Assembly: GCF_043290135.1 (NCBI RefSeq)
Contig: NC_134701.1
Span: forward strand, 5,982,001 to 6,046,000
Direction of reading: 5' to 3'
DNA length: 64,000 nucleotides
Source of the DNA: Rhipicephalus microplus
Taxonomy: Eukaryota; Arthropoda; Arachnida; Ixodida; Ixodidae
Position 1 is the stretch's first letter; every line of letters begins with the position of its first letter. Below are positions 1 through 60,661 of this stretch, in pieces. The notes beneath the pieces were generated by a model. It ran no database searches. It had not been told where the DNA came from and saw only the letters and a program-made list of their open reading frames with translations. The translations under genes and the position numbers were made by a program.

Positions 1-1
1 C

Positions 2-3460: not shown

Positions 3461-3624
3461 TGTAGTGGACGCTGAGTGCTATGTTAATCCTCTAATGGAT
3501 GGCGCTGTCGGCATGCGCGCGCCACCTCATGTGGGGTATATAGCAGGGGGGCAGTTGGGAATAAAGGGGGTCTTCTTGTTGTTGCTATGAGCCATGCTCG
3601 TGTCTTACTCGGCGTCTCTGAACA
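3461..3624 (+). repeat. 3' LTR of Gypsy element A (164 bp)
   Basis: It begins TGTAGTGG and ends TCTCTGAACA, so TG...CA. A TATATA box lies at 3537-3542 and an AATAAA signal at 3560-3565. Promoter and poly(A) signal are thus packed within about 30 bp, as in compact invertebrate Gypsy LTRs. The base after the LTR starts the satellite flank ATATGTTCTGG. The partner LTR is off the window, so age cannot be judged. Confidence 0.85.
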
Positions 3625-4591
3625 ATATGTTCTGGTGGTGGTGAGTGTGGAGCCGGACTGTCTCCGTGGCGCAATTGGCTAGCGCGATCGGCTGTTAACC
3701 GAAAGGTTGGAGGTACGAGCCCTCCCGGGACTGGTGCGTTGCTTTTTTTTCTTAGGGCTGATAGCTTTACAGATATGTTGTGATGGTGGTGAGAGTGGAG
3801 CACGACTGTCTCCGTGGCGCATTTGGCAAGCGCGATCGGCTGTTAACCGAAAGGTGGGCGGTACGAGCCCAACCGGTGGTGGTGCGGCGCTTTTTTTCTT
3901 TGGGCTGATAGCTTTGAAGATATGTTCTGATGGTGGTGAGAGTGAAGCACGACTGTCTCCGTGGCGCAATTGGCTAGCGCGATCGGCTGTTAACAACAAT
4001 GTTCGAGGTAAGAGCCCACCCGGTGGTGGTGCGGCGCTTTTTTTTCTTTGGGCTGATAGCTTTGAAGATATGTTCTGATGGTGGTGAGAGTGGAGCACGA
4101 CTGTCTCCGTGGCGCAATTGTCTAGCGCGATCGGCTGTTAACCGAAAGGTTGGAGGTACGAGCCCACCCGGTGGTTGTGCGGCACTTTTTTTCTTTGGGC
4201 TGATAGCTTTGAAGATATGTTCTGATGGTGGTGAGAGTGGAGCACGACTGTCTCCGTGGCGCAATTGGCTAGCGCGATCGGCTGTTAACCGAAAGGTTGG
4301 AGGTACGAGCCCACCTGGTGGTGGTGCGGCGTTTTTTTTCCTTTGGGCTGATAGCTTTGAAGATATGTTCTGATGGTGGTGAGAGTGGAGCACGACTGTC
4401 TCCATGGCGCAATTGGCTATTCGATCGGCTGTTAACTGAAAGGTTTGAGGTTCGAGCCCTCCCGGGAGTGGTGTGTTGCTTTTTTTATTTTGGGCTGATA
4501 GCTTTGAAGATATGTAATGATGGTGGTGAGAGTGGAGCACGACTGTCTCCGTGGAGCAATTGGCTAGCGCGATCGGCTGTTAACCGAAAGG

Positions 4592-4652
4592 TTGGAGGTA
4601 CGAGCCTACCCGGTGGAGGTGCGAGCCCACCCGGTGGAGGTGCGGCGCTTTT
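4592..4652 (+). repeat. Satellite unit with a duplicated T-arm 3' half
   Basis: The stretch GGAGGT-x-CGAGCC-x-ACCCGGTGG occurs twice in a row before the GCGGCGC trailer and T run, adding about 22 bp to the unit. It breaks any tRNA fold. The same change is present at 7121, which marks the 2529-bp duplication. Confidence 0.75.
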
Positions 4653-4861
4653 TTTTCTTTGGGCTGATAGCTCAGAAGATATGTTCTGATGGTGGTGAGA
4701 GGGGAGCACTACTGTCTCCGTGGCGCAATTGGCTAGCGCGATCGGCTGTTAACCGAGAGGTTGGAGGTTGGAGCCTTCCCGGTGGTGGTGCGGCGATTTT
4801 TTTCCTTTTGGCTGATAGCTCTGAAGAAATGTTCTGACGGTGCTGAGAGTGGAGCACGACT

Positions 4862-4934
4862 GTCTTCATGGCGCAATTGGCTATGCGATCGGCTGTCAAC
4901 TGAAAGGTTGGAGGTTCGAGTCCTCCCGGGAGTG
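4862..4934 (+). pseudogene. tRNA-Asn-like body with anticodon changed to GTC (Asp)
   Basis: The body starts GTCTTCATGGCGC. The anticodon loop reads CTGTCAA with GTC at 4895-4897 in place of GTT. The D arm is one base shorter than in the common unit (CTATGCG instead of CTAGCGCG). The T loop is intact (TTCGAGT), so the B box is near consensus. A T run follows. Asparagine identity depends on the GTT anticodon, so I read this as a decayed copy rather than a real tRNA-Asp. Similar GTC copies lie near 7424, 27570, 28161, 34602, 39272 and 61139. Confidence 0.6.
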
Positions 4935-5155
4935 GTGTATTGCTTTTTTTCTTTGGGCTGATAGCTTTGAAGAAATGTTCTGATGATGGTGAGAGTGGAG
5001 CACGACTGTCTCCGTGGCGCAGTTGGCTAGCGCGATCGGCTGTTAACCGAAAGGTTGGAAGTACGAGCCCACCCGGTGGTGGTGTGGCGCTTTTTTTTCT
5101 TTGGGCTGAAAGCTTTGAAGAAATGTTCTGATGGTGGTGAGAGTGGAGCACGTCT

Positions 5156-5229
5156 GTCTCCGTGGCTCAATTGGCTAGCGCGGTCGGCTGTTAACCGAAA
5201 GGTTGGAGGTTCGAGTCCTCCCGGGAGTG
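5156..5229 (+). tRNA. tRNA-Asn(GTT)-like gene, one of the better copies
   Basis: A 74-nt cloverleaf can be drawn: acceptor 5' strand GTCTCCG, D arm GCTC/GCGC with one mismatch, anticodon loop CTGTTAA (5188-5194), variable loop AGGTT, T stem GGAGG/CCTCC with loop TTCGAGT. The A box (TGGCTCAATTGG) and B box (GGTTCGAGTCC) fit the consensus for RNA polymerase III, and a T7 run follows 12 bases downstream. The weak point is the acceptor 3' strand CGGGAGT, which pairs poorly with GTCTCCG. Near-identical units lie at about 7979 and 16526. It may be a functional gene, a transcribed repeat or a pseudogene; sequence alone does not decide. Confidence 0.45.
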
Positions 5230-8200
5230 GTGTGTTGCTTTTTTTATTTTGGGCTGATAGCTTTGAAAATATGTTTTGATGGTGGTGAGTGTGGAGCAGG
5301 ACTGTCTCCGTGACGAAATTGGCTAGCGCGATCGGCTGTTAACCGAAAGGTTGTAGGTACGAGCCCACCCGGTGGAGGTGCGGCGCTTTTTTTTTCTTTG
5401 GACTCATAGCTTTGAAGATATGTCCTGATGGTGGTGAGAGTGGAGCACGACTGTCTCCATGGCGCAATTGGCTAGCGCGATGGGCTGTTAGCTGAGAGGT
5501 TGGAGGTTCGAGCCCACCCGGTGGTGGTGCGGCGATTTTTTTTCCTTTGGGCTGATAGCTCTGAAAAAATGTTCTGACGGTGGTGAGAGTGGAGCACGAC
5601 TGTCTTCATGGCGCAAGTGGCTATGCGATCGGCTGTTAACTGAAAAGTTGGAGGTTCCAGCCCTCCCGGGAGTGGTTTGTTGCTTTTTTTTTGGGCTGAT
5701 ACCTTAGAAGATATGTTCTGATGGTGGTGAGAGTGGAGCACGAATGTCTCCGTGGCGCAATTTGCTAGCGCGATCGGCTGTTAACCGAAAGGTTGGAGGT
5801 ACGAGCCCACACGGTGGTGGTCCGGCACTTTTTTTCTTTGCGCTGATAGCTCTGAAGAAATGTTCTGACGGTGGTGAGATTGAAGCACGACTGTCTCCGT
5901 GGCGCAATTGGCTATGCGAAAGGCTGTTAACCGGAAGGTTGGAGGTTCGAGCCCTCCCGGGAGTGGTGTGTTGCTTTTTTTTCTTTGGGCTGATAGCTTT
6001 GAAGATATGTTCTGATGGTGGTGAGAGTGGAGCAGGACTGTCTCCGTGGCGCAATTGGCTAGCGCGATCGGCTGTTAACCGAAAGGTTGGAGGTTTGAGC
6101 CCTCCCGGGAGTGGTGTGTTGCTTTTTTTTATTTTGGGCTGATAACTTTGAAGATATGTTCTGGTGGTGGTGAGTGTGGAGCCGGACTGTCTCCGTGGCG
6201 CAATTGGCTAGCGCGATCGGCTGTTAACCGAAAGGTTGGAGGTACGAGCCCTCCCGGGACTGGTGCGTTGCTTTTTTTTCTTAGGGCTGATAGCTTTACA
6301 GATATGTTGTGATGGTGGTGAGAGTGGAGCACGACTGTCTCCGTGGCGCATTTGGCAAGCGCGATCGGCTGTTAACCGAAAGGTGGGCGGTACGAGCCCA
6401 ACCGGTGGTGGTGCGGCGCTTTTTTTCTTTGGGCTGATAGCTTTGAAGATATGTTCTGATGGTGGTGAGAGTGAAGCACGACTGTCTCCGTGGCGCAATT
6501 GGCTAGCGCGATCGGCTGTTAACAACAATGTTCGAGGTAAGAGCCCACCCGGTGGTGGTGCGGCGCTTTTTTTTCTTTGGGCTGATAGCTTTGAAGATAT
6601 GTTCTGATGGTGGTGAGAGTGGAGCACGACTGTCTCCGTGGCGCAATTGTCTAGCGCGATCGGCTGTTAACCGAAAGGTTGGAGGTACGAGCCCACCCGG
6701 TGGTTGTGCGGCACTTTTTTTCTTTGGGCTGATAGCTTTGAAGATATGTTCTGATGGTGGTGAGAGTGGAGCACGACTGTCTCCGTGGCGCAATTGGCTA
6801 GCGCGATCGGCTGTTAACCGAAAGGTTGGAGGTACGAGCCCACCTGGTGGTGGTGCGGCGTTTTTTTTCCTTTGGGCTGATAGCTTTGAAGATATGTTCT
6901 GATGGTGGTGAGAGTGGAGCACGACTGTCTCCATGGCGCAATTGGCTATTCGATCGGCTGTTAACTGAAAGGTTTGAGGTTCGAGCCCTCCCGGGAGTGG
7001 TGTGTTGCTTTTTTTATTTTGGGCTGATAGCTTTGAAGATATGTAATGATGGTGGTGAGAGTGGAGCACGACTGTCTCCGTGGAGCAATTGGCTAGCGCG
7101 ATCGGCTGTTAACCGAAAGGTTGGAGGTACGAGCCTACCCGGTGGAGGTGCGAGCCCACCCGGTGGAGGTGCGGCGCTTTTTTTTCTTTGGGCTGATAGC
7201 TCAGAAGATATGTTCTGATGGTGGTGAGAGGGGAGCACTACTGTCTCCGTGGCGCAATTGGCTAGCGCGATCGGCTGTTAACCGAGAGGTTGGAGGTTGG
7301 AGCCCTCCCGGTGGTGGTGCGGCGATTTTTTTCCTTTTGGCTGATAGCTCTGAAGAAATGTTCTGACGGTGCTGAGAGTGGAGCACGACTGTCTTCATGG
7401 CGCAATTGGCTATGCGATCGGCTGTCAACTGAAAGGTTGGAGGTTCGAGTCCTCCCGGGAGTGGTGTATTGCTTTTTTTCTTTGGGCTGATAGCTTTGAA
7501 GAAATGTTCTGATGATGGTGAGAGTGGAGCACGACTGTCTCCGTGGCGCAGTTGGCTAGCGCGATCGGCTGTTAACCGAAAGGTTGGAGGTACGAGCCCA
7601 CCCGGTGGTGGTGTGGCGCTTTTTTTTCTTTGGGCTGATAGCTCTGAAGAAATGTTCTGACGGTGGTGAGAGTGGAGCACGACTGTCTTCGTGGCGCAAT
7701 TGGCTATGCGATCGGCTGTTAACTGAAAGGTTGGATGTTGGAGCCCTCCCGGGAGTGGTGTGTTGCGTTTTTTTCTTTGGGCTGATAGCTTTGAAGATAT
7801 GTTCTCGTGGTGGTGAGAGTGGAGCAGGACTGTCTCCGTGGCGCAATTGGCTAGCGCGATCGGCTGTTAACCGAAATTTGGAGGTACGAGCCCACCCGGT
7901 GGTGGTGCGGCGCTTTTTTTTCTTTGGGCTGAGAGCTTTGAAGAAATGTTCTGATGGTGGTGAGAGTGGAGCACGTCTGTCTCCGTGGCTCAATTGGCTA
8001 GCGCGGTCGGCTGTTAACCGAAAGGTTGGAGGTTCGAGTCCCCCGGGAGTGGTGTGGTGCTTTTTTTATTTTGGGCTGATAGCTTTGAAAATATGTTTTG
8101 ATGGTGGTGAGTGTGGAGCAGGACTGTCTCCGTGACGAAATTGGCTAGCGCGATCGGCTGTTAACCGAAAGGTTGTAGGTACGAGCCCACCCTGTGGAGG

Positions 8201-9421
8201 TGCGGCGCTTTTTTTTTCTTTGGACTCATAGCTTTGAAGATATGTCCTGATGGTGGTGAGAGTGGAGCACGACTGTCTCCGTGGCGCAATTGGCTAGCGC
8301 GATGGGCTGTTAGCTGAGAGGTTGGAGGTTCGAGCCCACCCGGTGGTGGTGCGGCGATTTTTTTTCCTTTGGGCTGATAGCTCTGAAAAAATGTTCTGAC
8401 GGTGGTGAGAGTGGAGCACGACTGTCTTCATGGCGCAAGTGGCTATGCGATCGGTTGTTAACTGAAAAGTTGGAGGTTCCAGCCCTCCCGGGAGTGGTTT
8501 GTTGCTTTTTTTGGGGCTGACACCTTAGAAGATATGTTCTGATGGTGGTGAGAGTGGAGCACGAATGTCTCCGTGGCGCTATTTGCTAGCGCGATCGGCT
8601 GTTAACCGAAAGGTTGGAGGTACGAGCCCACACGGTGGTGGTCCGGCACTTTTTTTTCTTTGCGCTGATAGCTCTGAAGAAATGTTCTGACGGTGGTGAG
8701 ATTGAAGCACGACTGTCTCCGTGGCGCAATTGGCTATGCGAAAGGCTGTTAACCGGAAGGTTGGAGGTTCAAGCCCTCCCGGGAGTGGTGTGTTGCTTTT
8801 TTTTTCTTTGGGCTGATAGCTTTGAAGATATGTTCTGATGGTGGTGAGAGTGGAGCAGGACTGTCTCCGTGGCGCAATTGGCTAGCGCGATCGGCTGTTA
8901 ACCGAAAGGTTGGAGGTTTGAGCCCTCCCGGGAGTGGTGTGTTGCTTTTTTTTATTTTGGGCTGATAACTTTGAAGATATGTTCTGGTGGTGGTGAGTGT
9001 GGAGCCGGACTGTCTCCGTGGCGCAATTGGCTAGCGCGATCGGCTGTTAACCGACAGGTTGGAGGTACGAGCCCTCCCGGGACTGGTGCGTTGCTTTTTT
9101 TTCTTAGGGCTGACAGCTTTACAAATATGTTGTGATGGTGGTGAGAGTGGAGCACGACTGTCTCCGTGGCGCAATGGGCTAGCGCGATCGGCTGTTAACC
9201 GAAAGGTTGGCGGTACGAGCCCAACAGGTGGTGGTGCGGCGCTTTTTTTCTTTGGGCTGATAGCTTTGAAGATATGTTCTGATGGTGGTGAGAGTGAAGC
9301 ACGACTGTCTCCGTGGCGCAATTGGCTAGCGCGATCGGCTGTTAACAAAAATGTTCGAGGTAAGAGCCCACCCGGTGGTGGTGCGGCGCTTTTTTTTTTC
9401 TTTGGGCTGATAGCTTTGAAG

Positions 9422-9425
9422 ATAT
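9422..9425 (+). repeat. Target-site duplication ATAT, left of element B
   Basis: ATAT directly before the 5' LTR is repeated at 14574-14577 directly after the 3' LTR. Removing the element and one ATAT restores the normal satellite reading, as seen uninterrupted at 17968-17971. Confidence 0.92.
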
Positions 9426-9599
9426 TGCTACCTGTAGGCTGCCACAAACCATAGTGCGAATGCGCGTGTGCGCCCGACGAAGAAGATGAGGCTCGCTGGC
9501 TGCTCGAGCTCGGAGCCAGACTGGCCAGTGCTGCAACCGCTCTTGCAAATATATTTTTCGAATATATTCGCAATACTTTGTCTCGTTACTCACGTAACA
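9426..9599 (+). repeat. 5' LTR of Gypsy element B (174 bp)
   Basis: It starts TGCTACCTGT and ends CACGTAACA (TG...CA). The last third is AT-rich (ATATATTTTTCG, AATATATTCG) and could hold the TATA and poly(A) functions, though no perfect AATAAA is seen. It matches 14400-14573 without a difference that I can find. Confidence 0.95.
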
Positions 9600-9603
9600 T
9601 ATT

Positions 9604-9616
9604 TGGTGGAGGTGGA
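9604..9616 (+). other. Primer-binding site of element B
   Basis: TGGTGGAGGTGGA begins 4 bases after the LTR. PBS sequences start TGG because they pair with the CCA end of a tRNA. The first 11 bases complement the CACCTCCACCA 3' end found in many animal tRNA-Ala genes, so tRNA-Ala is the likely primer (inference from general knowledge of that tRNA). Element C has a similar but not identical site, TGGTGGGAGGT. Confidence 0.6.
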
Positions 9617-9673
9617 ACGATCCCCGTCCTCACCACGCAGCTCCGCAGTGGCCGCATCCTCCAGCTTCCCGCC

Positions 9674-10858
9674 ATGGCTTCCAGTGACAACGCGTCCGCT
9701 TCATCATCTGCGGCTTCTCCGACAACCTTTGTCGCCGTCCAAACACCACGTGATCCCGGGACATTTTCTGCGCAACCTGGCCTCGACGTCGACAAATGGC
9801 TTCGCCTTTATGAACGGGTCAGTCAAACTCACCGTTGGGACCCTACCATGATGCTCGCTAATGTTCTCTTCTACTTGGACGGAACCCCGCGTGTCTGGTA
9901 CGAGACAAATGAGTCCGAACTCACCAGCTGGGACACGTTCAAGGAGAAGCTACGTGACATCTTTGGGGACCCGACCGGTCGCCACGCAGCTGCACGACAG
10001 GAGCTGGCTACCCGTGTCCAGTCGCCAACTGAATCGTATGTGTCATACATCCAAGAAGTTCTCGCTCTTTGCCGAAAAGTGGACGAGGCGATGTCTGAGG
10101 CTGAAAAGGTTGGACACGTTTTGAAGGGGATCGCGGACGACGCCTTCAATTTGCTGGTGTACACTAACGTCTCGACCATCGACCGTGTAATTCAAGAATG
10201 CCGCCGTTTCGAAACAGCAAAAAGCCGTCGGGTGCGCCCTCCTTTTTCTCGGTTGCCAAACACGGCGGCTACGTCCACCTGCTCCGATTCTACCGTCACA
10301 CCGCCCTTTGAGCAGAGTGTAACGCGTATCGTTCGACGGGAACTTGAAGCAGCAAGTCCAGCGCCGCTTCAGCCCACTTCTTTCGAACATACGATACCGA
10401 CAACCCCCGCGATCTCCGTTATTCAGGCGGTCGTACGACAAGAATTCGCCAACCGCGGGTTCCCTGATGCTTGCCCCATCTCTTGCCCCTCCTCCAGACC
10501 AATTCCCATTAATGCACCTCGACGTGACCCATTTGTTGCTCCACGATCTCGCAACCCGGCGGAATGGCGAACTCCTGACGACAAACCGATCTGCTTCCGG
10601 TGCCACCGCGTTGGACATGTCTCCCGCTACTGCCGTGCCTCCTGGACGCCGCCACATAGGAGCCAGTTTTTCGCACCTTATAGCCCATATGAAGATCTTC
10701 GCCGGTATTCGTCCAGCCGTACCGCCCCAGCTTTCGACACGTCTAACAGCCGCCTTCCTGCTCGTTCTCCGTCCCCTCAACGCCGTCGTTCCCCGTCGCC
10801 CCAGCCACGCCGCCATCACTCGCCGCCTAACTTTTCATCGTACCCGACGGAAAACTAG
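9674..10858 (+). CDS. gag: Gag of Gypsy element B
   Basis: 394 residues from the ATG at 9674 (context GCCATGG) to the TAG at 10856-10858. The frame is open further upstream into the LTR, but without another ATG. The first half (about residues 25-190) is a retrotransposon capsid-type domain: a Trp-Leu-x-x-Tyr-Glu-Arg stretch, a Phe-Tyr-Leu-x-Gly motif followed by Val-Trp-Tyr-Glu, and an alpha-helical tail. One CCHC knuckle (Cys307, Cys310, His315, Cys320; from base 10592) binds RNA. The C-terminal 50 residues are rich in Arg, Ser and Pro. Gag would form the particle that packages element RNA. The stop follows directly on GGAAAAC, the proposed frameshift site for making Gag-Pol. Confidence 0.92.
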   Translation: MASSDNASASSSAASPTTFVAVQTPRDPGTFSAQPGLDVDKWLRLYERVSQTHRWDPTMMLANVLFYLDGTPRVWYETNESELTSWDTFKEKLRDIFGDPTGRHAAARQELATRVQSPTESYVSYIQEVLALCRKVDEAMSEAEKVGHVLKGIADDAFNLLVYTNVSTIDRVIQECRRFETAKSRRVRPPFSRLPNTAATSTCSDSTVTPPFEQSVTRIVRRELEAASPAPLQPTSFEHTIPTTPAISVIQAVVRQEFANRGFPDACPISCPSSRPIPINAPRRDPFVAPRSRNPAEWRTPDDKPICFRCHRVGHVSRYCRASWTPPHRSQFFAPYSPYEDLRRYSSSRTAPAFDTSNSRLPARSPSPQRRRSPSPQPRRHHSPPNFSSYPTEN

Positions 10859-10914
10859 ACAGTGCAGCCCCTGGAGGTAGTGCTGCATCATCCCTGTCTG
10901 AACCAAACCCTCCA
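10849..10914 (+). promoter_or_regulatory. Predicted -1 frameshift signal of element B (slippery site plus pseudoknot)
   Basis: GGAAAAC (10849-10855) comes just before the gag stop. After an 8-base spacer, GCAGC (10864-10868) can pair with GCTGC (10882-10886) around a 13-base loop. TGGAGG in that loop (10872-10877) can pair with CCTCCA (10909-10914), giving an H-type pseudoknot with a 22-base connecting loop. Element C has the same arrangement with the same spacings. The heptamer is not a perfect X-XXY-YYZ site but resembles GGAUUUU-type sites of some RNA viruses. Part of the match could come from conserved coding of Ala, Gly and Pro codons. Confidence 0.65.
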
Positions 10915-13900
10915 TTGACGCTTCATACGAACAAAAATCTTGTCGATGTACACGTGGACGGTATTTCTCTGTCGGCACTAGTCGATACTGGCGCTCATGT
11001 GTCCATAATCAGCGTTCATCTTTGTCGCCGCTTAAGAAAAGTACTCACGCCCCCTGCTACCGAAGCTGTACGTGTGGCCGATGGCGGCACTGTTCCTGTC
11101 ATTGGCATGTGTACGGCTCGCATACGCATCGCCGACCGTTACATCCCTGTTCTATTCACGGTGCTCCAGAACTGTCCTCATGACCTCATCTTAGGGATGG
11201 ACTTCCTGTCGACCCATTCTGCTCTGATCGACTGTTCCGCTGGTACTCTTTGCTTAGACCTTCCTCTTCAGCCGGATATTCACCCTGAACCTCAACACGG
11301 CCTTTCTGCCACAGACTTCCTCCGCTTACCGCCTAAAGCCCTCACATTCACCGAATTCGCCACGACCTCACCCGTATTGGATGGGAATTACATCGTCACG
11401 CCGATTCCTGATGTCCTACTGGCACGTGACGTCACCGTCCCTCACTGCATCGTAACTGTAGCCTCCAACCGGACCCGTCTACCCGTCATAAATTTCGGCT
11501 TCACAAAGCAAGTCCTCCCTGAAGGCATCCTAATTGCCACGTTGCGGTCCTTAGCCGATGATCACGTCACCACTTTCGCAGCCGACGCATGCCCCAATTT
11601 TCCTTGTCGCCCACTCGATGCCACATGCCTCGACATGTCAATACGTCCCATGATCGACCCTGACCTTCCCCCAGCGCAATCAGCCGCTCTCGCACACCTT
11701 CTAGCTTCCTACCGTGACATCTTCGACCTTGACGACCGCCCACTCGTCCAAACTTCTCTTGTAAAGCACCGCATCAACACCGGTGATGCTGCTCCCATTC
11801 ACCGTCGACCGTATCGCGTGTCCGCGTCGGAGCGCCAGATTATTCAAGCTGAAGTGAATAAGATGTTAACTAAAGGCATTATTGAGCCCTCATCAAGCCC
11901 ATGGGCGTCACCCGTCGTCCTGGTTAAAAAGAAGGACAACACATGGCGTTTTTGCATCGATTACCGGCATCTAAATCGAATCACCAAAAAGGACGTGTAT
12001 CCTTTACCACGTATTGATGACGCCCTCGATTGTCTCCACGGCGCACGCTACTTTTCATCCATCGACCTTCGTTCTGGTTATTGGCAGATTGCCGTAGACG
12101 AGAAAGACCAAGAAAAGACCGCCTTCATCACTCCAGATGGCCTATACCAATTCAAGGTTATGCCCTTCGGCCTATGCAATGCCCCCGCCACGTTCGAACG
12201 TATGATGGACTCTCTGCTACACGGGTTCAAATGGTCAACATGCCTGTGTTACCTAGACGACGTCCTCGTATTTGCACCTACGTTTGAGACCCACCTTGAG
12301 CGTCTGTCGGCCATTCTCGACGTCTTCCGCAAAGCTCGCCTCCAGTTGAACTCCTCGAAGTGTCACTTCGGCCGCCGACAGATTACCGTGCTGGGCCACC
12401 TTGTCGATGCTTCTGGTGTGAGACCGGACCCTGAGAAAATTCGTGCCGTCACGAATTTCCCAGTACCCCAATCCGCCAAAGATGTCCGGAGCTTTGTGGG
12501 ACTTTGCTCCTACTTTAGGCGGTTCGTGAAAGATTTTGCGGCAATCGCCCAACCACTTACCGATCTTTTGAAGAAAGGCGTTCCATTTTCGTGGGGGTCC
12601 ACTCAAGCTGCCGCCTTCTCTCACCTCATAACACTTTTGACGACGCCCCCTATCCTCGCCCACTTTGACCCATCTGCCCGAACTGAGGTCCGAACTGATG
12701 CCAGTGGTCACGGTATCGGAGCCGTTCTCGCCCAATGCCAACAGGGACACGACCGCGTTATCGCGTATGCTAGCCGCCTCCTTACACCTGCAGAGCGTAA
12801 CTATTCGATCACAGAGCGAGAATGCCTTGCTCTTGTCTGGGCGGTCTCAAAATTCCGTCCATATTTATATGGCACTCACTTTTCCGTCGTCACCGACCAC
12901 CACGCGCTCTGCTGGCTTTCATCCTTAAGAGATCCTACAGGTCGACTTGGTCGCTGGGCTCTGCGACTGCAAGAATACACCTTTTCTGTGATATACAAGT
13001 CTGGACGCCTGCACCAGGACGCCGATTGCCTTTCTCGCTATCCAGTTGACCCATCGGCCACCATACCTGACAACGACGCCTGCGTGTGCTCCGTTTCTCA
13101 ACTGAACCACATAGCCGACGAGCAACGCCGTGATGCAGCCCTACGAGCTATCATTGAGCGCCTCGACTCCTCCCCATCGAACCGATCCTATCGCTCGTTC
13201 GTACTCCAGAATGGCACATTATACCGGCATAACTTCCATCCAGACGGCCCATCTCTGCTGCTTGCCATACCCAAACACCTCCGCTTGGCTGTACTCCACG
13301 AACTTCATGACGTTCCTACTGCCGGTCACCTGGGTGTGTCCCGCACATACGACCGGATTCGCCGTCGCTTCTATTGGCCAGGTCTGGCACGGTCCGTCAG
13401 AAGATACGTCGCGGCGTGTGAGGAATGTCAGCGCCGCAAAACACCATCGACGCTTCCGGCTGGGCGCCTTCAACCACTCAATATTTCTACTGAACCTTTC
13501 TTTCGCGTCGGCTTGGACTTACTCGGCCCTTTTCCTCTGTCTTCTGCTGGCAACAGGTGGATAGCTGTGGCCACAGACTACGCCACACGCTACGCAATCA
13601 CACGCGCCCTTCCAACAAGTTGCGCCACTGACGTCGCCGATTTTCTTCTACACGACGTGATCTTGCAACATGGTGCTCCACGCCAGCTGCTCACGGACCG
13701 AGGCCGCACATTTCTATCGAAAGTCATAGCGGACATTCTACGCTCTTGTGCAACACGCCACAAGCTCACTACGTCGTACCATCCGCAAACAAATGGCCTC
13801 ACAGAACGCCTGAACCGAACCCTAACTGACATGCTTGCAAAGTACGTTTCCTCAGATCACTCTGACTGGGACATCGCTTTACCATACGTGACATTTGCCT

Positions 13901-14364: not shown

Positions 14365-14399
14365 ATGCGCCGAGACGGCGCCTTTGCCGACGGGGGTTA

Positions 14400-14573
14400 T
14401 GCTACCTGTAGGCTGCCACAAACCATAGTGCGAATGCGCGTGTGCGCCCGACGAAGAAGATGAGGCTCGCTGGCTGCTCGAGCTCGGAGCCAGACTGGCC
14501 AGTGCTGCAACCGCTCTTGCAAATATATTTTTCGAATATATTCGCAATACTTTGTCTCGTTACTCACGTAACA
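14400..14573 (+). repeat. 3' LTR of Gypsy element B (174 bp)
   Basis: Same sequence as 9426-9599. A short G-rich tract (ACGGGGGTTA) just before it may be the plus-strand primer, though it is a weak polypurine tract. It is followed by the ATAT target duplication, and 31 bp after that by the GTCTCCG start of the next tRNA-like body. Confidence 0.95.
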
Positions 14574-17967: not shown

Positions 17968-17971
17968 ATAT
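17968..17971 (+). other. Empty (pre-insertion) paralogue of the element B target site
   Basis: The flanks on both sides match those of element B over several hundred bases, but here GAAGATATGTTCTG is uninterrupted. ATAT appears once instead of twice. Confidence 0.88.
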
Positions 17972-40883: not shown

Positions 40884-40914
<31 letters not shown>

Positions 40915-44081: not shown

Positions 44082-44112
<31 letters not shown>

Positions 44113-47130: not shown

Positions 47131-47161
<31 letters not shown>

Positions 47162-47198
47162 AGGTACAAGCCCACCCGGTGGTGGTGCGGCGCTTTTT
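44832..47198 (+). repeat. tRNA-Asn-derived satellite array, block 7
   Basis: About 16 units forming the second 3049-bp copy, essentially the sequence of 41783-44149. Nothing else is seen. Confidence 0.92.
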
Positions 47199-48351: not shown

Positions 48352-48355
48352 ATAT
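48352..48355 (+). other. Empty paralogue of the element C target site
   Basis: The left flank CTTCTTTTTCTTTGGGC... and right flank ATATGTTCTGATAGTGG of element C are joined here without an insertion. A second such site is at 25739-25742. Confidence 0.8.
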
Positions 48356-49864: not shown

Positions 49865-49938
49865 GTCTCCGTGGCGCAATTGGCTAGCGCGATTGGCTGG
49901 TAACCGAAAGGTTGGAGGTACGAGCCCACCCGGTGGTG
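49865..49938 (+). pseudogene. tRNA-Asn-like body with anticodon changed to GGT (Thr)
   Basis: The anticodon loop reads CTGGTAA, with GGT at 49899-49901. The body is otherwise a normal type B unit with T loop TACGAGC and T stem GGAGG/CCACC (one mismatch). A related unit with CTGGTAACTG is at about 49602, and a duplicate at about 62170. It is probably a decayed copy. Confidence 0.58.
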
Positions 49939-50898
49939 GTGTGGCGCTTGTTTTTCTTTGGGCTGATAGCTTTGAAGATATGTTCTGATGGTGGTGAGAG
50001 TGGAGCACGACTGTCTCCGTGGCGCAATTGGCTAGCGCGATCGGCTGTTAACCGAAAGGTTGGAGGTTCGAGCCCTCCCAGGAGTGGTGTGTTGCTTTTT
50101 TTGTTTTGGGCTGATAGCTTTGAAGATATGTATTGATGGTGGTGAGAGTGGAGCACGACTGTCTCCATGGCGCAATTGGCTATACGATCGGCTGTTAACT
50201 GAAAGGTTTGAGGTTCGAGCCTTTCCGGGAGTGGTGTGTTGCTTTTTTTATTTTGGGCTGATAGCTTTGAAGATATGTTCTGATAGTGGTGAGAGTGGAG
50301 CACGACTGTCTCCATGGCGCAATTGGCTATTCGATCGGCTGTTAACTGAAAGGTTTGAGGTTCGAGCCCTTCCGGGAGTGGTGCGGCGCTTTTTTTTCTT
50401 TGGGCTGATAGCTTTGAAGAAATGATCTGATGGTGGTGAGAGTTCAGCACGTCTGTCTCCGTGGCGCAATTGGCTAGCGCGGTCGGCTGTTAACGGAAAG
50501 GTTGGAGGTACGAGCCCACCCGGTGCTGGTGCGGCGCTTTCTTTTCTTTGGGCTGATAGCTTTGAAGATATGTTCTGATGGTGGTGAGAGTGGAGCACGA
50601 CTGTCCCCGTGGCGCAATAGGCTAGCGCGATCGGCTGTTAACCGAAAGGTTGGAGGTTTGAGCCCTCCCGGGAGTGGTGTGTTGCTTTTTTTTTCTTTGG
50701 GCTGATAGCTTTGAAGATATGTTCTCGTGGTGGTGAGAGTGGAGCACGACTGTCTCCGTGGCGCTATTGGCTAGCGCGATTGGCTGTTAACCGAAAGGTT
50801 GGAGGTTCGAGCCCACCCGGTGGTGGTGCGGCGCTTTTTTTCTTTGGGCTAAAAGGTTTGAAGATGTGTTCTGATGGTGGTAAGAGTGGAGCACGACT

Positions 50899-52132: not shown

Positions 52133-52169
52133 AGGTACAAGCCCACCCGGTGGTGGTGTGGCGCTTTTT

Positions 52170-52851
52170 AGATGCGGAGCATCTTATACTCGCGCCTTGT
52201 AGTGCGCCGTCCGCGCCGTCCGCGCCGTCCGCACCGCTTCTCGAACATTCGACAGCTGACGCGTGCGCATGCGCCGTCGCGCCGTCGCCCACTCTTCGAC
52301 CATCTGTGCATCCCTTCCTCCTCTACACACCGCGCGTGCTTCACTCCTCCACTATCTGTGCACCCTTCCTCCTCTACACACCGCGTTCGACATCTACAAT
52401 TCTCCTGATTCTCCAGTGGACGCGCATGTGGCGTCGCGCTTCGAGAACATTCAACAGCTGACAGTGCATGCGCCGTCGAGCTGTATATATACTCAAGGTC
52501 GGCGCTCGCTCGCTCAGTTGCCGCTCGTCGGTTGGTTTGTACGGCGTGTCGACGTCCAAGGTCGCGGTGAAATGAATTCCAACGAATCCACAAACACAAT
52601 GATCGACGTCCCTTCGACCAGCGCCGCCCTTTCGCATACGTGGGTACGTGTTCACTAATTTAACACCCCCTCCTACAACCACGTTAACCAATTTAGCCAT
52701 CGACCCAAGTAAGTCGCAATTTAACACCCCATTTCACAACCACGTTAACCAATTTAGCCATCGACCCAAGTAAGTCGCACTTTAACACCCCGTTAACCAA
52801 TTATATGCTCCGCATCCTCCTCAGTGTTCCCCCGAGGGAAGCTGCGGGCAA
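52170..52851 (+). mobile_element. TIR-bounded insert, copy 7
   Basis: Inverted repeats at 52171-52182 and 52805-52816 are perfect. The short frame stops at CACTAA. Single-base changes (ACGCGTGCGC, GTGGGTACG) separate it from copies 5 and 6, so it is not a product of the last 3049-bp step. Confidence 0.7.
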
Positions 52852-53471
52852 TTTTTTTTCTTTGGGCTGATAGCGTTGAAGATATGTTCTGATGGTGGTG
52901 AGAGTGGAGCAGGACTGTCTCCGTGGCGCAAACGGCTAACACGATCGGCTGTTAACCAAAAGGTTGGAAGTACAAGCCCTCCCGGGATTGGTGTGTTGCT
53001 TTTTTTATTTTGGGCTGATAGCTTTGAAGATATGTTCTGATGGTGGTGAGAGTGGAGCACGACTGTCTCCGTGGCGCAATTGGCTAGCACGATCGGCTGT
53101 TAACCGAAAGGTTGGAGGTACGAGCCCACCCGGTGGTGGTGCGGCGCTTTTTTTGGGCTGATAGCTTTGAAGATATGTTCTGATGGTGGTGAGAGTGGAG
53201 CACGACTGTCTCCATGGCGCAATTGGCTATTCGATCGGCTGTTAACTGAAAGGTTTGAGGTTCGAGCCAATCCGGGAGTGGTGTGTTGCTTGTTTTATTT
53301 TGGGCAGATAGCTTTGAAGATATGTAATGATGGTGGTGAGAGTGGAGCACGACTGTGTCCGTGGCGCAATTGGCTAGCGCGATCGGCTGTTAACCGAAAG
53401 GTTGGAGGTACGAGCCCACCCGGTGGTGGTGTGGCGCTTCTTTTTCTTTGGGCTGATAGCTTTGAAGATAT
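52852..53471 (+). repeat. tRNA-Asn-derived satellite array, block 9
   Basis: About four units between insert copy 7 and element C. They match the units after the other inserts (for example 30524-31145). The block ends with the ATAT target duplication 53468-53471. Confidence 0.92.
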
Positions 53472-53608
53472 TGTAACGGTAGGATGAGAACGACGAAGAA
53501 GACAAAGAGGAGGACGATGTTGTCAGATCTGTGAGCCAACTGGGCGCCATCTTGTCCACCACCGAGTTTATTCCTCGTTTTATAAAGTAAAGTTATTCTC
53601 CCGTAACA
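53472..53608 (+). repeat. 5' LTR of Gypsy element C (137 bp)
   Basis: It starts TGTAACGGTA and ends TCCCGTAACA. TATAAAG lies near its right end, within TTTTATAAAGTAAAG. It equals 58436-58572 by eye. The terminal GTAACA is shared with the element B LTR. Confidence 0.95.
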
Positions 53609-53612
53609 TCAT

Positions 53613-53625
53613 TGGTGGGAGGTGC
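53613..53625 (+). other. Primer-binding site of element C
   Basis: TGGTGGGAGGTGC begins 4 bases after the LTR, as in element B, but with one extra G. It would pair with a tRNA ending CACCTCCCACCA. I cannot name that tRNA with confidence. Confidence 0.5.
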
Positions 53626-53682
53626 GGGGTACTCACTTCACGCAAAACGGAGCTTCGTAGCGGGCGCCTAGTGGTCTCCCCC

Positions 53683-54897
53683 ATGGCGACTGCAGTCAAC
53701 AATGCCGACCCTTCCCCGACTACCGTGCCTTCTCCAACTACGTCCGTGCTTTCTCCAACTGGACCGTCAACCCTCATCTTGGAGCCCCCGAGAGATCCAG
53801 GTACCTTTTCTGGCACTGATGGCATTGACGTAGAAGCCTGGCTGAAGTCATACGAACGAGTGGGTGTACGTATGCGATGGGATCCAACGCTCATGCTGGC
53901 CAACGTGATTTTTTATCTCAGAGGTACCGCAAAGGTCTGGTACGAGACGCACGAGGAAGAACTGACTAGCTGGGAGTTATGCAAGCAAAAGCTCCGGGAG
54001 CTATTTGGCAGGCCTGTGGGAAGTCAACGCGCCGCCCAAAACGAGCTCGCACGTCGAGTTCAGACGTGCACCGAATCATACCTCACGTACATTCAGGACG
54101 TGCTCGCTTTGTGCCGCAAGGTAGACTCGCAGATGTCCGAAGCCGATAAGGTTGACCATATTATTAAGGGCATAGCAGATGACGCCTTTCACCTTCTTGT
54201 GTTCAAGAATTCATCTACGGTCCACGACATTATTTCTGAATGCCGGCGCTTTGAAGAAGCGAAGAGCCGCCGTGTTCTCCACCAGTTTGCCCGGCTTCCA
54301 AACACGGCTGCAACATCCACATGCGAAGACCCTCGCCTGCCTTCTACGGAAAGTCCCGGTGACGTTGTCCGTATTGTCCGTCGGGAAATAGAAGCCGCAG
54401 CTCCACTCGTGTCAGCCTCCCCCAACTCCGAAAGCTATCACGCCACCGTCTCTCTCATACAGACCGTCGTGAGGCAAGAACTGGCCAACGCCGGCTTAAA
54501 CGTCTGCTCCATTCATCGTCCAGACTACGCCACACCAAATCCACCCGTGACTGTTCCGCCCAACCGACGTTTTTCTGCCAGCCCACATTATCGCGACCCG
54601 GCGGTATGGCGCACCCCAGACGACCGGCCGATATGCTTCAATTGCGGTCGTATAGGCCACATTTCGCGTCACTGCCGTGCTTGGTCCAGCTCTGCTCCGT
54701 GGCCTCACCCTCCGCCCCATCGCCCACCTGTCTGGAATTCACGCTCATCACCGAAAACAGAGCCGCTAACGCCTGAGAATTCCTCGCGCCCCCGATCCAG
54801 CCGCTCCCCTTCGCCACAACGCCGTTTCTCCCGCTCGCCCCCATCTCGCCGATCGCCGTCCCCAAGCTCGTTCCGGCGTTCACCTCCGGAAAACTGA
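53683..54897 (+). CDS. gag: Gag of Gypsy element C
   Basis: 404 residues from the ATG at 53683 (context CCCATGG) to the TGA at 54895. An in-frame GTG upstream is not a likely start. After a Ser/Thr/Pro-rich leader comes a capsid-type domain like that of element B, with matching Trp, Tyr-Glu-Arg, Phe-Tyr-Leu and Val-Trp-Tyr-Glu motifs. One CCHC knuckle is at Cys318, Cys321, His326, Cys331 (from base 54634). The C-terminal 60 residues are strongly Arg/Ser/Pro-rich. The frame ends in GGAAAAC followed by TGA, as in element B apart from the stop codon used. Confidence 0.92.
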   Translation: MATAVNNADPSPTTVPSPTTSVLSPTGPSTLILEPPRDPGTFSGTDGIDVEAWLKSYERVGVRMRWDPTLMLANVIFYLRGTAKVWYETHEEELTSWELCKQKLRELFGRPVGSQRAAQNELARRVQTCTESYLTYIQDVLALCRKVDSQMSEADKVDHIIKGIADDAFHLLVFKNSSTVHDIISECRRFEEAKSRRVLHQFARLPNTAATSTCEDPRLPSTESPGDVVRIVRREIEAAAPLVSASPNSESYHATVSLIQTVVRQELANAGLNVCSIHRPDYATPNPPVTVPPNRRFSASPHYRDPAVWRTPDDRPICFNCGRIGHISRHCRAWSSSAPWPHPPPHRPPVWNSRSSPKTEPLTPENSSRPRSSRSPSPQRRFSRSPPSRRSPSPSSFRRSPPEN

Positions 54898-54953
54898 CGG
54901 GAGCAGCTCTTGGAGGTGATGCTGCAATACCGACCCGATCCCAAAATCCTCTA
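54888..54953 (+). promoter_or_regulatory. Predicted -1 frameshift signal of element C
   Basis: GGAAAAC (54888-54894) is followed by the gag TGA, an 8-base spacer, GCAGC (54903-54907), a 13-base loop and GCTGC (54921-54925). TGGAGG in the loop (54911-54916) can pair with CCTCTA (54948-54953), using one G-U pair, after a 22-base connecting loop. Spacer and loop lengths equal those of element B. The change of CCTCCA to CCTCTA keeps pairing possible. Confidence 0.65.
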
Positions 54954-57900
54954 CTGACCTTGCCCGCACATCAGAACCTTATCAATGTTGACGTCGACGG
55001 TGTACCTACTACAGCCCTCATTGACACTGGCGCACACGTGTCTATCATGAACGCTGACCTTAGAGCACGGCTGAAGAAAGTCCTTACTCCTGGCCCAACT
55101 CCTGTGGTCCGAACGGCCGATGGTGGAAAAGTCGCCGTAATTGGTGTGTGCTCAGCTCGCGTCAGCGTCGCCGGACACCACACATCAGTTCTGTTTTATG
55201 TTTTAGAACACTGCCCTAATGACATAATTTTGGGCCAAGACTTTTTGTCTGAACATTCGGCCTTGATAGACTGCTCTGCCGGTATAGTGCAACTCGCTCT
55301 ACCTAATGTTGTTGATCCTCCAAGTTGCCCTCCAAGTCGGCTTTGTTCTACAGAACACCTGCGTCTCCCTCAACGAACAGTAGCTTACATAGGCGTCTCC
55401 CCTGTTCCACCTGTCCCAGACGGTGTTTATATTGTGTCCCCCAATGTTGACGTCCTGCTTTCGCACAACGTTGCGTTTCCTCACACCGTCATCACTATTA
55501 CGGCCAATGCATCCTGCCTACCCTTAGTGAATTTTTCACTATGTACACAAGTCCTCCCTCGTGGTATATCTCTAGCCGAGATCGTGCCGGCGGCAGAGTG
55601 CCATATTTGCACTCTAAGTTATGACAGCATCCCGAGTGCCGAAAAAACTTCGTCTACTCCTCCATCAGACCAAAGTGTGTTAACCAAGATGATTGCCCCC
55701 GACTTGCCGAAAGAACAAGCTAACGACCTCCGTTCCCTGCTTGCATCTTTTTGGGACATCTTCGACCTTGGCGACCGCCCACTCGGCCAGACGTCCGTTG
55801 TTAAGCACCGGATTGATACAGGCGATACGAGTCCCATCCATCGGAGACCCTACCGTGTTTCCCATGCAGAGCGGCGCATCATCCAACAGGAGGTCGACAA
55901 AATGCTTTCTCGGAATATCATCGAGCCTTCATGCAGTCCCTGGGCGTCCCCTGTTGTACTTGTAAAGAAGAAGGACAACAGCTGGAGATTTTGCGTTGAT
56001 TATCGCCATTTAAACAAAATAACGAAGAAGGACGTCTACCCTTTACCACGCATAGACGATGCCCTGGATTGCCTTCACGGCGCAAAATATTTTTCCTCCA
56101 TTGACCTCCGCTCTGGGTACTGGCAGATTGCCGTTGATGACATGGACCGTGAGAAGACGGCGTTTATCACTCCCGACGGCCTTTACGAGTTTAAAGTGAT
56201 GCCATTCGGTTTATGTAATGCGCCCGCCACATTCGAACGTATGATGGACGCTCTGTTGCACGGTTTCAAGTGGTCCATCTGCCTGTGCTACCTGGACGAC
56301 GTTATCGTTTTTTCGCCTTCTTTTGCGACGCACCTTGAAAGGCTATCGAAAATCTTATCTGTCTTTCGTAAGGCGGGCCTGCAACTCAATTCGGCAAAGT
56401 GCCACTTCGGCCGTCGTGAAATTTCTGTCCTCGGACACCTCGTTGATTCCGTGGGGGTTCGCCCTGATCAAGATAAAATACGCGCAGTAAGAGATTTCCC
56501 TGTACCAACCTGTACCAAAGACGTTCGCAGTTTCGTTGGCCTCTGTTCTTACTTCCGCCGCTTTGTTAAAAACTTCGCCGACGTAGCACGCCCTCTCACT
56601 CAACTTCTCAAAAAAGACGCTGGCTTCATCTGGGGCCCCGAGCAAGCAGATGCGTTTCAAAATCTAGTGTGTCTGCTTACGTCTCCGCCTATCCTCGCCC
56701 ACTTTGATATTTCATCTCCAACAGAAGTTCGTACAGACGCAAGTGGCTATGGCATCGGTGCAGTCCTCGCCCAGAAACAACAAGGACGAGACCGTGTTGT
56801 TGCTTATGCCAGCCGCCTTCTTTCGCCTGCTGAAAGAAAATATTCAATAACCGAACGGGAATGTTTGGCACTTGTTTGGGCAGTCGGTAAATTTCGTCCC
56901 TATTTGTACGGCCGGCCATTCACAGTAATCACAGATCACCACGCCTTGCGCTGGCTTTCGTCCCTTAAAGACCCTTCAGGCCGTCTTGGCCGTTGGGCGC
57001 TGCGCCTTCAAGAATTTGATTACTCAGTCCTGTATAAAACCGGCCGCCTGCATCAAGATGCGGACTGCTTGTCCCGGTATCCTGTCGACCCTCCAGACGG
57101 CGACTCCTCTAAAACCACCCTTCCTATCGACGTTTTCTCTCTATCCGCGTTTCATGACATTGGAATCGAGCAGCGACGAGATACTTTCTTGGACGGTATT
57201 ATCCGAAGGCTCACATCGGTGAGGCCCGACCCTTCCCTTCGAATGTTTGAAATACATGATGGTGTATTGTACCGTTGCAATATGCGTCCTGACGGCCCCG
57301 AAAGACTACTCGTCGTTCCCATTCAATTGCGTCACACTGTTCTCGCCCAGCTTCATGATGCACCTACAGCGGGTCACCTCGGCGTGTCACGGACCTACGA
57401 CAGAGTTCGCCGGCGCTTCTTCTGGCCTGGCATGTACCGCGACGTCTGCCGTTATATTGCAGCCTGCGACCCTTGTCAACGACGGAAAAAACCAAATGCC
57501 CCTCCGGCCGGACGTCTTCAGCCACTGCACATCCCACAAGACCCATTCTACCGTGTTGGCGTGGACCTGCTTGGCCCTTTTCCTACGTCAGCTGCGGGTA
57601 ATCGGTGGATTGCAGTAGCAACCGATTATGCTACCCGATACGCGATCACACGGGCCCTTCCAACCAGCTGTGCAACTGACGTGGCCGATTTCCTTTTGGA
57701 GGACGTCATCTTACATCATGGCGCCCCTCGACAACTCCTTACCGACCGAGGCAGCTACTTCCTTTCCAAAGTGGTTGATGACCTCCTCCGCTCCTGCGCC
57801 ACTAAACACAAGCTCTCGACTGCTTACCATCCACAAACAAATGGTCTAACGGAGCGCCTCAATCGCACTCTCACCGACATGCTCTCCATGTATGTCTCCG

Positions 57901-58397
57901 CCGATCACCGCGACTGGGACACTACGTTACCGTTTGTAACATTCGCGTACAATTCTTCCAGACACGACACCGCTGGGTTCTCTCCTTTTTTTCTGTTGTT
58001 CGGCCGTGACCCTGCGCTACCTTTCGACACCCTCCTGCCGGCCGGACTAAATGACAAGTCTCAGTACGCTCGTGATGCAATAATGAAGGCCCAAGCGGCA
58101 CGCCAAGTTGCTCGACGACGCTTACTGGACTCCCAGGACAATCAGAAGAGCGTATACGACGCCCGCCATCGTGACGTCCACTTCACACCCGGAGATCTCG
58201 TTCTGTTATGGTTCCCCTCGCGCCGCGTTGGACTTTCGGAGAAGTTACTCCCACGCTATTCAGGTCCCTACCGTATCTTACGCCAAGTAACTGACGTCAC
58301 ATACGAAATCACCCCTACGGACCCCGCCATCCTTCACCCTCACACTGACGTAGTGCATGTTACGCGACTCAAACCGTATTACTCCAGTGCCTCCTGA
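54891..58397 (+). CDS. pol: Pol of Gypsy element C, reached by -1 frameshift
   Basis: It is open from the slippery site to the TGA at 58395, about 1168 codons, with no plausible ATG at its start. Protease: Asp-Thr-Gly at 55023. RT: first Asp at 56103, Tyr-Leu-Asp-Asp with the Asp pair at 56295-56300. RNase H: Asp at 56736. Integrase: HHCC finger near 57350-57480, then Asp 57624, Asp 57744, Glu 57852 (DX35E), and a GPY/F-type module near 58190-58310. All catalytic residues are present. The protein copies element RNA, matures the polyprotein and inserts the DNA. The integrase C-terminal part is the likely site for any target preference (inference). Confidence 0.93.
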   Translation, partial: KLTGAALGGDAAIPTRSQNPLLTLPAHQNLINVDVDGVPTTALIDTGAHVSIMNADLRARLKKVLTPGPTPVVRTADGGKVAVIGVCSARVSVAGHHTSVLFYVLEHCPNDIILGQDFLSEHSALIDCSAGIVQLALPNVVDPPSCPPSRLCSTEHLRLPQRTVAYIGVSPVPPVPDGVYIVSPNVDVLLSHNVAFPHTVITITANASCLPLVNFSLCTQVLPRGISLAEIVPAAECHICTLSYDSIPSAEKTSSTPPSDQSVLTKMIAPDLPKEQANDLRSLLASFWDIFDLGDRPLGQTSVVKHRIDTGDTSPIHRRPYRVSHAERRIIQQEVDKMLSRNIIEPSCSPWASPVVLVKKKDNSWRFCVDYRHLNKITKKDVYPLPRIDDALDCLHGAKYFSSIDLRSGYWQIAVDDMDREKTAFITPDGLYEFKVMPFGLCNAPATFERMMDALLHGFKWSICLCYLDDVIVFSPSFATHLERLSKILSVFRKAGLQLNSAKCHFGRREISVLGHLVDSVGVRPDQDKIRAVRDFPVPTCTKDVRSFVGLCSYFRRFVKNFADVARPLTQLLKKDAGFIWGPEQADAFQNLVCLLTSPPILAHFDISSPTEVRTDASGYGIGAVLAQKQQGRDRVVAYASRLLSPAERKYSITERECLALVWAVGKFRPYLYGRPFTVITDHHALRWLSSLKDPSGRLGRWALRLQEFDYSVLYKTGRLHQDADCLSRYPVDPPDGDSSKTTLPIDVFSLSAFHDIGIEQRRDTFLDGIIRRLTSVRPDPSLRMFEIHDGVLYRCNMRPDGPERLLVVPIQLRHTVLAQLHDAPTAGHLGVSRTYDRVRRRFFWPGMYRDVCRYIAACDPCQRRKKPNAPPAGRLQPLHIPQDPFYRVGVDLLGPFPTSAAGNRWIAVATDYATRYAITRALPTSCATDVADFLLEDVILHHGAPRQLLTDRGSYFLSKVVDDLLRSCATKHKLSTAYHPQTNGLTERLNRTLTDMLSMYVSADHRDWDTTLPFVTFAYNSSRHDTAGFSPFFLLFGRDPALPFDTLLPAGLNDKSQYARDAIMKAQAARQVARRRLLDSQDNQKSVYDARHRDVHFTPGDLVLLWFPSRRVGLSEKLLPRYSGPYRILRQVTDVTYEITPTDPAILHPHTDVVHVTRLKPYYSSAS

Positions 58398-58425
58398 TTA
58401 GCACCGGGTCGGTGCTCCAGCCGCC

Positions 58426-58432
58426 GGGGAAA
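58426..58432 (+). other. Polypurine tract of element C
   Basis: GGGGAAA lies 3 bases before the 3' LTR, the usual place for plus-strand priming. Confidence 0.6.
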
Positions 58433-58435
58433 TCA

Positions 58436-58572
58436 TGTAACGGTAGGATGAGAACGACGAAGAAGACAAAGAGGAGGACGATGTTGTCAGATCTGTGAGC
58501 CAACTGGGCGCCATCTTGTCCACCACCGAGTTTATTCCTCGTTTTATAAAGTAAAGTTATTCTCCCGTAACA
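58436..58572 (+). repeat. 3' LTR of Gypsy element C (137 bp)
   Basis: Same sequence as 53472-53608. It is followed by ATAT (58573-58576) and, 31 bases later, by a tRNA-like body starting GTCTCCATGGCGC. Confidence 0.95.
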
Positions 58573-60661
58573 ATATGTTCTGATAGTGGTGAGAGTGGAG
58601 CACGACTGTCTCCATGGCGCAATTGGCTATTCGATCGGCTGTTAACTGAAAGGTTTGAGGTTCGAGCCCTTCCGGGAGTGGTGCGGCGCTTTTTTTTCTT
58701 TGGGCTGATAGCTTTGAAGAAATGTTCTGATGGTGGTGAGAGTTGAGCACGTCTGTCTCCGTGGCGCAATTGGCTAGCGCGGTCGGCTGTTAACCGAAAG
58801 GTTGGAGGTTCCAGCCCTCCCGGGAGTGGTTTGTTGCTTTTTTGGGCTGATAGCTTAGAAGATATGTTCTGATGGTGGTGAGAGTGGAGCACGAGTGTCT
58901 CCGTGGCGCAATTTGCTAGCGCGATCGGCTGTTAACCGAAAGTTTGGAGGTACCAGCCCACACGGTCGTGGTCCGGCACTTTTTTTTTCTTTGGACTGAT
59001 AGCTCTGAAGAAATGTTCTGACGGTGGTGAGAGTGGAGCACGACTGTCTCCGTGGCGCTATTGGCTATGTGAAAGGCTGTTAACTGGAAGGTTGGAGGTT
59101 CGAGCCCTCCCGGGAGTGGTGTGTTGCTTTTTTTGGGCTGATAGCTTTGAAGATATGTTCTGATGGTGGTGAGAGTGGAGCAGGACTGTCTCCGTGGCGC
59201 AATAGGCTAGCGCGATCGGTTGTTAACCGAAAGGTTCGAGGTACGAGCCCACCCGGTGGTGGTGCGGCGCTTTTTTTCTTCTGGCTGATAGCTCTGAAGA
59301 AATGTTCTGGCGGTGGTGAGAGTGGAGCACGACTGTCTCCGTGGCGCATTTGGCTAGCGTGATCGGCTGTTAACCGAAAGGTTGGAGGTACGAGCCCACC
59401 CGGTGGAGGTGCGGCGCTTTTTTTCTTTGGGCTGATAGCTTTGAAGATATGTTCTGATGGTGGTGAGAGTGGAGCACGAGTGTCTCCGTGGCGCAATTGG
59501 CTATGCGAAAGGCTGTTAACCGGAAGGTTGGAGGTTCGAGCCCTCCCGGTGCTGGTGCGGCGCTTTTTTTTCTTTGGGCTGATAGCTTTGAAGATATGTT
59601 CTCATGGTGGTGAGAGTGGAGCACGACTGTCTCCGTGGCGCTATTGGCTAGCGCGATCGGCTGTTAACCGAAAGGTTGGAGGTTCGAGCCCACCCGGTGG
59701 TGGTACGGCGCTTTTTTTCTTTGGGCTGAAAGGTTTGAAGATGTGTTCTGATGGTGGTAAGAGTGGAGCACGACTGTCTCCGTGGCGCAATTGGCTAGCG
59801 CGATCGGCTGTTAACCGAAAGGTTGGAGGTTCGTGCCCTCCCGGGAGTGGTGTGTTGCTTTTTTTATTTTGGGCTGATAGCTTTGAAAATATGTTCTGAT
59901 GGTGGTGAGTGTGGAGCAGGACTGTCTCCGTGATGCAATTGGCTAGCGCGATCGGCTGTAAACCGAAAGGTTGGAGGTACGAGCCTACCCGGTGGAGGTG
60001 CGGCGCTTTTTTTTCTTTGGGCTGATAGCTTTGAAGATATGTTCTGATGGTGGTGAGAGTGGAGCACGACTGTCTCCCTGGCGCAATCGGCTAACGCGAT
60101 CGGCTGTTAACCGGAAGGTTGGAGGTACGAGCCCTCCAGGGAGTGGTGTGTTGCTTTTTTTATTTTGGGCTGAAAGCTTTGAAGATAGGTTCTGATGGTG
60201 AGGAGAGTGGAGCACGACTGTCTCCGTGGCGCAATTGGCTAGCGCGATCGGCTGTTAACCGAAAGGTTGGAGGTACGAGCCCACCCGGTGGTGGTGCGGC
60301 GCTTTTTTTTCTTTAGGCTGATAGCTTTGAAGATATGTTCTGATGGTGGTGAGAGTGGAGCACGACTGTCTCCATGGCGCAATTGGCTATTCGATCGGCT
60401 GTTAACTGAAAGGTTTGAGGTTCGAGCCCTTCCGGGAGTGGTGTGTTGCTTTTTTATTTTGGGCTGATAGCTTTGAAGATATGTAATGATGGTGGTGAGA
60501 GTGGAGCACGACTGTCTCCGTGGCGCAATTGGCTAGCGCGATTGGCGGTTAACCGAAAGGTTGGAGGTACGAGCCCACCCGGTGGTGGTGCGGCGCTTTT
60601 TTTTCTTTGGGCTGATAGCTTTGAAGATATGTTCTGATGGTGTTGAGAGTGGAGCAGGACT

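Follow-up and report, generated by a model that had tools for sequence, protein, structure and literature searches.

Three Ty3/Gypsy elements inserted at the same ATAT of a tRNA-derived satellite in the tick Rhipicephalus microplus

Background

Palindromic target motifs are reported for all the LTR families of Drosophila treated in the excerpts of PMC3276498, where the elements of the 412 and Idefix clades have 4-bp ATAT motifs, that of the 412 clade being of low information content, and the gypsy clade has TATA. The GPY/F motif is reported in the 412 and blastopia subgroups in the available sections of PMC5408687, according to which only errantiviruses and elements derived from them integrate in a sequence-specific way, these two GPY/F subgroups being described as nonspecific. 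No target preference is reported for the elements of a Culex survey in the portion of PMC3286476 at hand, and 5-bp duplications are given in most of the Mag rows listed there. As far as these extracts go, the published surveys do not describe a strong ATAT preference in the majority of comparable arthropod Gypsy elements.

Gypsy elements aimed upstream of Pol III genes are described, in the excerpted text of PMC5006619 and PMC5911963, as inserting at a distance of 1-10 bp from the start of transcription or of 6-33 bp from the mature tRNA, with Tca8 at 6-30 bp and DGLT-A of Dictyostelium at 13-33 bp upstream of the mature tRNA, and Skipper-2 is described there as inserting downstream. Mutations in box A or box B prevent the insertion of Ty3 in yeast according to the same excerpts.

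Here we present a window of 64,000 nt of the Rhipicephalus microplus genome (NC_134701.1 of GCF_043290135.1, positions 5,982,001-6,046,000, forward strand), in which three Gypsy elements, called A, B and C, share one ATAT position of a 148-bp tandem unit as their insertion site. With the Drosophila 412/mdg1 and Idefix/297 clades they share the Gypsy order of pol domains, a palindromic target and, in B and C, a 4-bp ATAT duplication, and B and C have an integrase end of the GPY type, which is reported in the 412 subgroup; unlike in those ATAT-preferring clades, where the flanks are T/A or C/G and the 412 motif is weak, a G stands on both sides of the site here. Ty3 of budding yeast is likewise a Gypsy element upstream of a tRNA-like sequence, but in the partial descriptions used it lies 1-4 bp from the transcription start, at some 12-15 bp before the mature tRNA, whereas here we found a spacer of 31 nt and a duplicated ATAT, and two of the three elements are followed by degenerate tRNAs. 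DGLT-A is also a Gypsy element of the tRNA upstream region; its described insertions are spread over their window with an average of about 15 bp, in contrast to the one exact base of a satellite seen here. The tick K02A2.6-like elements are related to element A, the integrase part of which shares 99% identity with a protein of that name from Rhipicephalus microplus, a similarity that by itself suggests this tick or a very close relative as the host.

Literature on tick tRNA satellites and on LTR insertions into satellites was searched, and no publication describing this case was present among the titles and abstract openings listed; nor is it described in the accessible parts of PMC3160391 and PMC2893602, the second of which reports tandem arrays, unnamed, in BACs of Rhipicephalus microplus.

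The satellite array

Most of the window is occupied by the 148-bp tandem satellite, in ten blocks with 45,339 bases. A block of tRNA-Asn-like units extends from 3625 to 9425, further blocks lie between 14574 and 53471, broken by seven copies of an insert of 683-686 bp, and a last block from 58573 reaches the window end at 64000, all on the + strand. Within the units a tRNA-Asn-like body precedes a T-run. ARAGORN, set to the bacterial code, predicted 155 tRNA genes in the window (149 Asn, 4 Asp and 2 Thr), and Rfam gave 175 matches at or above the gathering score, all of the 150 listed being tRNA and the best of those listed scoring 51.2 bits.

Unit statistics were compiled for the 299 of 316 unit pieces having at least 130 bp, the 17 shorter pieces being left out. 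ATAT stands at the start of 242 of these units, AAAT at the start of 42, which lack the insertion site in agreement with the sequence-only reading, ATGT at 14 and another sequence at one. A consensus B box is present in 88 units and GGTACGAGCC takes its place in 126. The 155 ARAGORN calls and 175 Rfam matches compare with 299 units examined; many units are degenerate as tRNA, and on the basis of its sequence the array is best called a tRNA-derived satellite.

Large blocks of the array are nearly identical to one another (98.8-98.9%), namely 25856-33035 with 36965-44150 and 41783-47198 with 44832-50247, which indicates recent segmental amplification. The seven copies of the 683-686-bp insert (24437-25120, 29841-30524, 36281-36964, 40951-41634, 44149-44831, 47198-47880 and 52169-52854) have inverted ends of the GATGCGGAGCAT type, and copies 2-7 are 97.5-98.5% identical to the first. 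All seven are situated at the T-run of the unit, with entry at phase 122, and they are evidently one insertion multiplied through array amplification.

The three Gypsy elements

Element A occupies positions 1 to 3624 on the + strand with its left end outside the window, and its 3' LTR is the 164 bp from 3461 to 3624 (TG...CA). Element B is a complete Ty3/Gypsy element at 9426-14573 (+), with LTRs of 174 bp at 9426-9599 and 14400-14573 and stop-to-stop frames for gag (9455-10858) and pol (10831-14364). Element C, also complete, is located at 53472-58572 (+), with LTRs of 137 bp at 53472-53608 and 58436-58572 and stop-to-stop frames for gag (53488-54897) and pol (54777-58397). In both complete elements gag and pol are open, the pol frame differs from the gag frame, and according to Pfam the pol product has domains of protease, RT, RNase H and integrase. 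The order RT, RNase H, integrase typical of Ty3/Gypsy was found by Pfam in B, in C and in the part of A within the window; two TG...CA LTRs with a short target duplication were found for B and C, A being represented by its 3' LTR only.

The two LTRs of each complete element are 100% identical, which suggests that B and C are recent, and with their open gag and pol they look recent and possibly still active. Their integrase C-terminus matches Pfam Integrase_p58_C and carries GPY; this C-terminal match is absent from the integrase of A. Integrase pieces show 70% identity between B and C, and 29% between A and C in the stretch that could be aligned; the three are therefore different elements that inserted separately. 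The claim that at least two lineages are present thus holds, and by their integrases there are clearly two separate lineages, one of them comprising the two related elements B and C. The LTRs of A, B and C gave no match to one another when each was compared with the window by blastn (E 1e-3). Global alignment of the B and C LTRs gave 100 identities, equal to the best of 100 shuffles (maximum 100, mean 89), and relatedness of these LTRs is therefore not claimed.

Viral and prokaryote contigs, which might contain tick contamination, were also searched with the integrase and with the satellite, and no usable relative was found in them: there were six 17-base matches, about the number expected by chance from a rough estimate, two matches of 30% identity, and 47 pattern matches, none of which tblastn showed to be a relative, and the other scans gave no match. 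Against plasmids, a piece of the satellite gave no match either.

The shared insertion site

The last four bases of each of the three elements are AACA, and the same satellite ATAT follows immediately. The 3' LTR terminus of A reads CTCTGAACA|ATATGTTCTG, and the 3' junction of B and C reads GTAACA|ATATGTTCTG with GAAGATAT on the left side. From this ATAT to the GTCTCC of the tRNA-like body there are 31 nt at all three insertions, and the elements and the tRNA-like bodies are all on the + strand; the junctions, spacing and common orientation noticed in the sequence-only reading were thereby confirmed. At a symmetric site, one shared orientation for three elements would have a chance of 1 in 4. 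The ATAT at the 3' junction of A is at 3625-3628 (+), unit phase 1. The duplicated ATATs of B are at 9422-9425 and 14574-14577 and those of C at 53468-53471 and 58573-58576, all on the + strand, so that the duplication on both sides reported for B and C is present at both complete elements (2 of 2). A is visible at its 3' junction only, and its duplication may be ATAT or a longer one such as ATATG.

Empty counterparts of the three sites were found in the same window. The right flank of A is identical over 800 of 800 bp to 6154-6953, where GAAGATATG runs uninterrupted, giving an exact empty-site paralogue at 6154. The joined flanks of B correspond to 17573-18367 with 99.87% identity over 796 columns, a near-identical empty site at 17968, and the joined flanks of C have their best empty-site paralogue at 30745-31548, with 95.4% identity over 804 columns. 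These alignments suggest that A, B and C went into copies of the array already in existence, and the empty sites speak against a common origin of the three insertions.

Chance calculations

With all unit positions equally likely, the probability of a three-way match is (1/148)^2 = 4.6e-5, as the sequence-only reading had put it. Of the 261 ATATs in the 45,339 satellite bases, 252 are at phase 1 and the other nine at phase 147, and a rule requiring ATAT alone therefore gives the three-way match with P = 0.90. Looser target preferences were rejected (RYRY 4-mers, P = 0.0014; 4-bp palindromes, 0.0005; AT-only 4-mers, 0.0008). For an ATAT preference of finite strength the three-way probability is 0.00015 when it is 10-fold, 0.044 when 100-fold and 0.56 when 1000-fold. 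For a tether that confines integration to 20 bp, the probability is 0.00013 without any base preference and rises to 0.04 when ATAT is favoured 10-fold and to 0.59 when it is favoured 100-fold; a tether confined to 4 bp yields 0.016 by itself. Some ATAT preference is consequently needed with or without tethering, unless a tether fixes the position to within a few bases, and a tether window lowers the strength required. All the evidence on target choice is from the only satellite family of the window, effectively one site, and within it the preference for a base sequence is confounded with tethering through Pol III factors.

Interpretation of the shared site

The likeliest reading, to which we give slightly better than an even chance, is that the integrases strongly prefer a palindrome centred on ATAT, of which there is essentially one site per unit. 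The integrases of A, B and C would each favour a short palindromic target with ATAT in its middle; the ATAT-bearing 148-bp units nearly all have ATAT at that one place only; the tandem array would then convert a base preference into a seemingly exact address, and the tRNA-like body 31 nt downstream would be incidental. The 12-bp sequence GAAGATATGTTC has 5 of 6 self-complementary pairs and ranks first among the 148 windows of the unit, an edge seen at 12 bp only, as it is tied at 10, 14 and 18 bp and surpassed at 16 and 20 bp. Of the two ideas in the sequence-only reading, the ATAT preference offered as the plainer one gains support from the 252 of 261 ATATs at one phase, from the rank of this 12-mer and from the Drosophila motifs, and targeting via Pol III factors is neither shown nor refuted by the window. 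Against a strong ATAT preference stand the high strength required, a 100-fold preference giving only 0.044, and the distance between the integrases of A and of B and C, which are 29% identical and yet would have the preference in common. The GPY-type integrases of B and C speak for it in that the motif is reported in the 412 subgroup, but they count against it as well, given the nonspecific GPY/F subgroups of the review (PMC5408687), and so do the low information content of the Drosophila 412 motif and the lack of target preference in the Culex survey.

The same base would also be reached if TFIIIB on the tRNA-like promoter drew the integrase to the adjoining upstream region and the exact position were then set by a moderate preference for ATAT, an explanation that we regard as unlikely but deserving weight. 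The site precedes a tRNA-like body with an A box and a T-run, to which part of the units add a B box of consensus sequence; the windows of DGLT-A and Tca8 show Gypsy elements aimed at such upstream positions, and weaker help from ATAT would suffice with a 20-bp tether window. The hints on Pol III targeting within the window are mixed. The A box motif is in all three hit units, and the consensus B box is in two of the three (those of B and C), compared with 68 of the 242 ATAT units. However, the units behind B and C (14574-14720 and 58573-58719), which have a changed D arm of deletion type CTATTCGATC with A and B box motifs present, receive no tRNA call from ARAGORN, nor from Rfam at E up to 1, and the unit of A is called as tRNA but its B box is non-consensus (GGTACGAGCC). 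The ATAT duplication at -35 to -32 falls just outside the upstream Gypsy windows in the excerpted descriptions, and a 20-bp tether without base preference, at 0.00013, does not give a single exact base. In the sections at hand of the Pol III review, at least 16 table rows list elements of yeasts and dictyostelids, and its main text has no word starting with animal, metazoa or insect. That two distantly related tick Gypsy lineages each came to aim upstream of Pol III-type promoters seems improbable to us. The D-arm-deleted type accounts for 29 of the 299 units and 29 of the 242 ATAT units, and at least two of three insertions would fall before such units with P = 0.04; this coincidence was spotted post hoc and is not counted as evidence.

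The unit length of 148 bp is about that of one nucleosome core, and it is conceivable, though we find it quite improbable, that the array phases nucleosomes and that a short accessible stretch containing ATAT receives the integrases. Histone association is listed among the influences on target choice in the available text of PMC5408687, but accessibility alone cannot set one base for three elements, and the entry of the 683-686-bp insert at phase 122 indicates that other positions of the unit are open. The array demonstrably copies inserts, as the seven copies at one position attest, and the shared position might thus be inherited, one insertion being spread by array amplification and other elements being swapped in by recombination. 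This we consider very improbable: the LTRs of the three elements are without mutual match in the window, B and C have intact duplications as well as empty paralogues, and the flank of A has a paralogue without A. An assembly artefact would be conceivable in a long satellite with near-identical blocks, but it is hardly credible, as misjoins are not expected to yield identical LTR pairs, 4-bp duplications in two elements and open gag and pol.

Value of the observation

If the strong ATAT preference is the right reading, the locus illustrates that a tandem array can disguise a simple base preference as exact targeting, a trap when specificity is read from satellites. If Pol III tethering were true instead, animal LTR retrotransposons would have Ty3-like targeting, the tRNA-derived satellite serving as a landing pad by which genes are spared, and the targeting of tRNA genes by LTR elements, described from yeasts and social amoebae in the literature excerpts, would extend to a repeat-rich arthropod.

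Variant units of the array

A unit variant of 169 bp, whose T-arm region contains a tandem duplication of 21 bp, is repeated at two places of the array, 4447-4792 and 6976-7321.
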